Shown here piece after piece: positions 18,055 through 58,669 of a stretch of DNA of 64,000 nt. The stretch's first letter is position 1. Each line of letters starts with the position of its first letter. The position numbers were made by a program, and so were the translations under genes. Under the pieces are notes generated by a model. The model did no database searches. It worked only from the letters and a program-made list of their open reading frames with translations, and was not told the DNA's origin. Origin of the DNA: Halobacterium noricense (GTDB lineage Archaea > Halobacteriota > Halobacteria > Halobacteriales > Halobacteriaceae); contig NZ_CP089468.1 of the NCBI RefSeq assembly GCF_021233435.1, positions 1 to 64,000 of the forward strand. Direction: 5' to 3'.

Positions 18055-18249
18055 CTGTTCTCAGTCGGTCCCTTCGCTGGCGAGCGCTTCCTGTTCGAGC
18101 CGGCGGTCGCGGTCGGTTTCGACGGTCAGTTCGGGCACTGTCGTGGGTTTCATCGCCTCGTCGACGGCGACGAACACGAAGTGCGAACTCGTCGTCTGCT
18201 CGGTCTCCCCGGTCCGGGGGTCCTCGCGGAACGCCCGTAAGCGGACGTG

Positions 18250-18366
18250 CACGCTGCTCGCGGGTCACTCTACTCGCGGCTCCCGAGGGTCACCGCTCGG
18301 CATTCCGCGCTCTCCTCCGTCGAGCGTGCGCTCCCCGCTCGCTGTAACGTGGCTCGCTTCGCCCAC
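18250..18366. repeat. 117-base insert in the thioesterase gene
   Basis: The 11-base sequence cacgctgctcg occurs at 18250-18260 and again at 18367-18377, exactly 117 bases apart, so this is a 39-codon insertion with a target-type duplication. It contains an in-frame TGA. It is less neatly palindromic than the other inserts. Confidence 0.75.
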
Positions 18367-18537
18367 CACGCTGCTCGTCCCGGCGTCGTAGGCGTACGAC
18401 TCGATGGCGCAGATGTCGCCCTGCGGAATCGGGCGCTCGAAGTCGAGGCCGTTGATGCGCGCGGTGACGCACGTCGACCCCGCGAGCCGCATCGCGGACA
18501 TCGCGCCCACCTCGTCCATCCACTTCACGACGTTGCC

Positions 18538-18595
18538 GTCCTCAGAACGCACAGCGTTCTGACGGGCTGCGAAAATCGCTCCGCGATTTTCGAAC
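18538..18595. repeat. 58-base double-hairpin insert in the thioesterase gene
   Basis: Two perfect hairpins with three-base loops: tcagaacgc/gcgttctga (18542-18550 with 18554-18562, loop aca) and cgaaaatcgc/gcgattttcg (18570-18579 with 18583-18592, loop tcc). The insert length is one more than a multiple of three, so it breaks the frame. Confidence 0.8.
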
Positions 18596-18711
18596 ACCGT
18601 GCGCTGACGCGTAGTTGTTCGTGTCGTCGGGCTGGACGCGCACGCGGTTCTCGATGTACGTCTCCGAAACTGTCGGCACGAACGAACGGGCGGGCCGACG
18701 GGAGAAAAGCG

Positions 18712-58405: not shown

Positions 58406-58669
58406 ATGAGCGAGCGCTGCGAGGGCTGTGGCGACAGCGTCCGAGTCGCGGGCGGTATCGGCGACATCTGGACGATGGACCCGACGGGCACTGGCGGGAT
58501 GACCCTCGAATTTACGGACGTTCAGGAGTCGCAGAGCGACTCCTGCACCCCATCAGAAGCGCGAAGCGCTTCTGAGGACGATTCGGAATTCTTCCTCTGT
58601 TTCGACTGCATCGACGCGCTCCCCGACGAACCGGGTGCGGGCGACGTGGCCGCGCTCGGCGAGCAGTGA
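58406..58669 (+). CDS. Small zinc-ribbon protein (DUF7561-like)
   Basis: An 87-residue protein with CEGC (5-8) and CFDC (about 67-70), probably one zinc site: CEGCGDSVRVAGGIGDIWTM, then FFLCFDCIDALPDEPG. Between GMTLEFTD and DSEFFLCF lie about 20 extra residues (VQESQSDSCTPSEARSASED) encoded by two perfect palindromes. Relatives, as I remember them, join these segments directly. ATG 58406 is preferred over an upstream TTG. Confidence 0.75.
   Translation: MSERCEGCGDSVRVAGGIGDIWTMDPTGTGGMTLEFTDVQESQSDSCTPSEARSASEDDSEFFLCFDCIDALPDEPGAGDVAALGEQ
58516..58580. repeat. 60-base double-palindrome insert in the zinc-ribbon gene
   Basis: ggacg occurs at 58516-58520 and 58576-58580 (offset 60, in frame). 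Inside are two perfect 10-bp hairpins with three-base loops: caggagtcgc/gcgactcctg (58523-58532 with 58536-58545, aga) and tcagaagcgc/gcgcttctga (58553-58562 with 58566-58575, gaa). Confidence 0.85.

Follow-up and report, generated by a model that had tools for sequence, protein, structure and literature searches.

What explains a gene that is split by two inserts and yet shows no other damage? The question arises at an acyl-CoA thioesterase gene in the genome of Halobacterium noricense (G000), located within a 64,000-nt stretch of DNA that was analysed as a whole (hereafter the window). The original prediction, made from the letters alone, left a choice between very recent insertions and sequence that is bypassed or removed in expression. 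Short structured coding inserts skipped by the ribosome are indeed known, from the byp elements of yeast mitochondria and from phage T4 gene 60.

Two inserts in an otherwise clean thioesterase gene

The gene product is a 4HBT/hotdog protein, a YciA-like acyl-CoA thioesterase, and the gene lies between a phosphoglycerate dehydrogenase-like gene (serA) on one side and a threonine synthase-like gene on the other, both named from reading of their open reading frames. Its predicted architecture proved accurate to the base. The 58-nt double hairpin said to shift the frame after SAHG consists of exactly GTTC...GGAC, placed inside the conserved AHG^G motif, and the 117-nt insert described with an 11-base flanking repeat and a TGA resolves into 106 nt plus one repeat copy. 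Removal of both from the 619-nt gene leaves 444 nt (147 codons and the stop) that encode the expected clean thioesterase, 99% identical to the intact protein of G004, the nearest congener. A search for further stops or frame shifts in the gene beyond the two inserts found none, nor any other decay, again as predicted.

Table 1. Features of the interrupted thioesterase gene and of the second double-hairpin copy in the window
Feature	Position	Strand	Remarks
Interrupted acyl-CoA thioesterase gene	18061..18679	minus	GTG start 18679; TGA stop 18063-18061; two inserts
Insert 1, 58-nt double-hairpin element GTTC-H1-GCAGCCCGT-H2-AGGAC	18538..18595	minus	shifts frame; upstream frame hits TGA near element end
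Hairpin 1 (H1) of insert 1, GAAAATCGC-GGA-GCGATTTTC	18571..18591	minus	
Hairpin 2 (H2) of insert 1, CAGAACGC-TGT-GCGTTCTG	18543..18561	minus	partly by reading of the sequence
11-bp flanking repeat CGAGCAGCGTG, first copy	18367..18377	minus	
Insert 2, 106 nt, member of G+C-rich multi-hairpin repeat family	18261..18366	minus	in-frame TGA 18267-18265
11-bp flanking repeat CGAGCAGCGTG, second copy	18250..18260	minus	single in intact relatives
Second double-hairpin copy, 60 nt, in frame in DUF7561 gene (58406-58669)	58520..58579	plus	

The comparison with sister genomes, which had been proposed as a check, found the gene uninterrupted in 10 of the 12 congeners in the genus Halobacterium; that the window itself belongs to this genus agrees with the identity of G004 loci to Halobacterium sp. 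KA-4. The gene of G010, another species, carries the 58-nt insert only and is otherwise clean, and in the draft genome G006 nothing closer than a 42%-identical paralogue turned up. An intact second copy, named beforehand as evidence against the predicted reading, was present only in the weak form of a 40%-identical thioesterase paralogue that occurs across the genus and is not a duplicate. With the inserts excluded, the thioesterase genes of G000 and G004 differ by 16 synonymous and one nonsynonymous changes (dN/dS 0.018). As far as sequence comparison can tell, this low ratio says that the gene was under constraint and functional until recently; short of continued production of the enzyme, both inserts must then be recent too.

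The RNA fold computed for insert 1 contained two hairpins with a minimum free energy of -35.4 kcal/mol (z -3.15), and 1 of 200 shuffles was as good. With at most 3 mismatches allowed, the window has a single match to its hairpin-1 pattern, vs 0.02 expected. The fold of insert 2 was not clearly better than those of shuffles (z -1.71). The repeat family of which insert 2 is a member has 27 matches in G000, the best other copy being 86% identical, and is matched in 12 of the 13 genomes of the genus. Because CGAGCAGCGTG is native to the thioesterase gene and resembles the family end motif GAGCAGCGTG, joining of insert 2 at an 11-bp match appears as likely as duplication of the target. A repeat related to insert 2 also forms a tandem array with a 77-bp period at another locus of the same genome (L301, G000:C1:2168500-2169700).

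A double-hairpin element family in Halobacteria

Searches with insert 1 as the query revealed dispersed copies in the genus. The core pattern CAGCCC[A/G]TCAGAA..TTCTGAGGAC recurs there, and at least 114 sequence stretches from named genomes contain it, almost all of them from haloarchaea; DNA similar to the element was also found on haloarchaeal plasmids, and IMG/VR contained no copies of the core pattern. A pattern describing the whole element matched 85 of 292 Halobacteria genomes, in 38 of 77 genera, and its reversed control matched none. Rfam gave no credible match, either for 15 loci at the gathering score or for the thioesterase gene at a lax E-value, and the open-licence papers searched described neither this family nor any other coding palindromic element of haloarchaea.

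The element has the architecture GTTC-hairpin 1-GCAGCCCAT-hairpin 2-AGGAC. Its stems vary among copies and pair within a copy: 7.8 of 8 hairpin-1 pairs were formed, compared to 4.8 when the arms (27 distinct ones) were swapped among copies. At nearly all of the 63 distinct insertion sites the element is 54-62 nt long, too short for a transposase. The left flanks of these sites follow C-G-R-C, with C at -1 in 62/63, R at -2 in 60/63, G at -3 in 47/63 and C at -4 in 36/63, and G occupies +1 on the right in 61/63, which defines the target as CGRC^G. Comparison with relatives whose thioesterase or DUF7561 gene has an empty site revealed no target duplication, and by reading, the ends GTTC and GGAC form an imperfect inverted repeat with 3 of 4 positions matching. 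Inversion of the loop (e.g. GCTGTGC vs GCACAGC) is the sole difference between some copies, affecting 6 of 22 near-identical pairs (L047/L044, L081/L056, L157/L152, L241, L243/L238, L250/L231). At L306, L315, L323, L330 (match at 1501) and L279 (2150-2210), another kind of double-hairpin unit (...GGGATGAC-hairpin-GAACCA) appears to sit within the linker of the first, so that four hairpins form an array.

Copies inside host genes are filtered by reading frame. When the 63 sites were classed, partly by eye, by codon scores of the joined flanks, ORF extent and recognisable homology, the length was a multiple of three for 18/22 copies in host genes vs 8/31 outside host and transposase genes (Fisher P=7.7e-5, or 2.3e-4 with the least certain gene moved to the other class), and for 3/10 copies in transposase genes. 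This distribution differs from the byp-type expectation that copies are tolerated at any length. All 18 in-frame copies in host genes are open throughout, in sense orientation and at a codon boundary, and they encode a VRKTTxSSSAAHQNAxRSED-type peptide in unrelated protein families, as a coding palindromic element would. Their hosts include genes in which the copy lies within or beside PALP/TrpB, fibrillarin, NAD kinase, lipoate ligase, ABC transporter and DUF2797 Pfam domains, as well as a DNA polymerase DP2/intein ORF. The two TrpB copies (L182 and L178), in Natrialba hulunbeirensis and Haloferax profundi, members of two haloarchaeal families, are one codon apart. The thioesterase copy, 58 nt long and with a stop, is an exception among the host-gene copies, and the others out of frame are L050 (58 nt), L204 (59 nt) and L248 (62 nt). 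L050, in a macro-domain gene of G001 whose two parts both show good codon bias, is itself a candidate recent disruption. The frame filter makes it most likely that ribosomes read the element, as opposed to its being skipped or spliced, and that a 58-nt copy disrupts its gene; in frame, it would presumably be translated as a short hydrophilic peptide.

Recurrence at one nucleotide and the fate of the thioesterase

G010 carries the same element variant as G000 at the same nucleotide of the thioesterase gene, and G004, the closest relative of G000, is without it. The two elements are identical over about 53 nt except for an inverted 5-nt loop (CTGTG/CACAG), in genes that differ by 9.7%. In the gene tree, G010 falls together with G000 and G004 at modest support, the placement of G000 being based on a nucleotide alignment, and both one gain followed by precise loss in G004 and two separate gains fit these data. 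Other sites are patchy as well: the DUF7561 gene contains one in-frame variant in G000 and G002 (L353) and empty sites in G004, G009, G010 and G012, and the DUF2797 gene contains the element in G002 and G012 and is uninterrupted in G000, G004 and G010. This pattern likely reflects site-specific re-insertion or precise excision or loss. Gene conversion was considered as a carrier of the element between G010 and G000 and between G002 and G000 at DUF7561. It was rejected at the former site, where one base 10 nt left of the element and another 3 nt to its right differ from the G010 type, and likewise at the latter by nearby bases, since bases close to the element that are the species' own argue against a converted tract.

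We consider it very probable that the thioesterase was disrupted recently by two unrelated dispersed repeats and that neither bypass nor splicing is needed. The mobile double hairpin of ~54-62 nt, spread across Halobacteria, inserts after CGRC without target duplication, as the empty sites show, and an IS200/IS605-type single-strand transposase acting in trans is the most likely means of its movement. Its 58-nt version lies in the active-site region (AHG^G), where it puts the following codons out of frame and runs into a TGA; full-length enzyme should therefore not be produced, and the G+C-rich multi-hairpin repeat would have joined at the 11-bp match to add another in-frame stop. Several observations count against this account, namely the same variant at the same nucleotide in an otherwise intact G010 gene, with a tree that allows shared descent and loss in G004; the unusual finding that a gene disrupted by two insertions shows hardly any amino-acid change; and the three other host-gene copies that are out of frame too. 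Given the insertion shared with G010, there is a small chance that something more unusual happens at the thioesterase. It is improbable, in particular, that the out-of-frame element predates the G000/G010 split in a gene that still works, by a +1 shift at UUC-UGA or by reversible precise excision acting as an on/off switch.

Translation past the insert, whether by bypassing of the hairpin as in byp elements and T4 gene 60 or by a +1 shift at UUC-UGA near the element end, would keep the enzyme in production, in agreement with the gene's freedom from decay and the stable double hairpin of insert 1. After a +1 shift in G000, reading would continue precisely in the frame beyond the element (GAG GAC GGC AAC), and the arithmetic also holds in G010 and in the 58-nt copy of the G001 macro-domain gene. 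However, the frame filter on host-gene copies argues that the element is not generally skipped, which sets it apart from byp and T4 gene 60, the slip from UUC to UCU would probably re-pair poorly, and the second insert in G000 brings its own stop, so that we regard this explanation as very unlikely. The same frame filter speaks against removal of the element from RNA as a small intron, an idea that its defined ends, structure and precise boundaries, as well as the ability of the termini GUUC and GGAC to pair, might otherwise recommend. The flanks of the 63 sites show no pairing constraint beyond CGRC^G, unlike archaeal bulge-helix-bulge introns, whose motif was absent on inspection, and with no match in Rfam either, splicing appears highly improbable.

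A single insertion older than the G000/G010 split, lost precisely and often in a gene toggled by insertion and excision, would account for the tree position of G010 next to G000 and G004, for the shared variant at the shared site and for the similar patchiness of DUF7561. Yet the elements show no difference over ~53 positions outside the inverted loop while the gene differs by 9.7%, an outcome with a probability of about 0.005 by our estimate if both changed at equal rates, and in a gene switched off for long, changes would not have stayed nearly all synonymous; this history is therefore unlikely. An assembly or sequencing artefact in G000 can practically be dismissed, given insert 1 at the same nucleotide in the independent genome G010 and the membership of both inserts in repeat families. 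Thus, of the two answers originally offered, recent insertion is supported by the low dN/dS against G004, whereas bypass or removal in expression is disfavoured by the family-wide frame filter.

Significance, mobilisation and relation to known elements

A broken thioesterase is in itself ordinary; what deserves attention is the element family, together with its recurrence at one nucleotide in different species. When in frame, this tiny mobile hairpin, known from at least 38 genera of haloarchaea, would lengthen conserved proteins (fibrillarin, TrpB, NAD kinase) by about 20 residues, and the family thereby offers a natural data set on protein tolerance of insertions. Use of the same nucleotide across species raises the testable question of how such elements move and leave. 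The Rickettsia palindromic elements are bacterial mobile palindromic repeats that likewise lie in frame in unrelated protein-coding genes. The haloarchaeal element differs in being shorter and in having two separate hairpins, and we know of no sequence relation between the two families.

The hairpins near both ends, the short target and the lack of duplication make the family resemble IS200/IS605-type elements and the palindrome-associated transposable elements (PATEs) described below, and machinery of the IS200/IS605 type is our best guess for its mobilisation. Insertion 3' of the fixed target CGRC^G is as in that type of transposition. Y1 transposases were found in 16 of the 18 genomes searched, and none matched in G005 and G050, two genomes with copies of the element. 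At L279 (G010) and L265 (G124), a Y1 transposase gene is flanked on either side by double-hairpin elements, and one of those at L279 is in frame inside an intact 433-aa TnpB ORF.

The closest likeness by description is to the PATEs of Haloquadratum walsbyi, which include 52-bp terminal-only forms of IS605-type transposons (PMC3119063). Like the double-hairpin family, they are haloarchaeal, of similar length and without transposase coding capacity, with palindromes near both ends and no target duplication (PMC3119063). PATEs associate with IS605-type transposons (PMC3119063), and several double-hairpin copies lie inside such transposons. No autonomous IS605-type parent bounded by hairpins 1 and 2 was found among 30 Y1-transposase loci from 16 genomes. 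The small mobile repeats (SMR-A) of the same species, about 110 bp long with prominent terminal inverted repeats, are similarly transposase-free, make no target duplication and are often inserted into IS605-type elements (PMC3119063), whereas the double-hairpin element is 54-62 nt long with only the weak GTTC/GGAC end match. In contrast to PATEs, which it resembles by description, the double-hairpin family spans 38 genera and lies in frame in conserved host genes.
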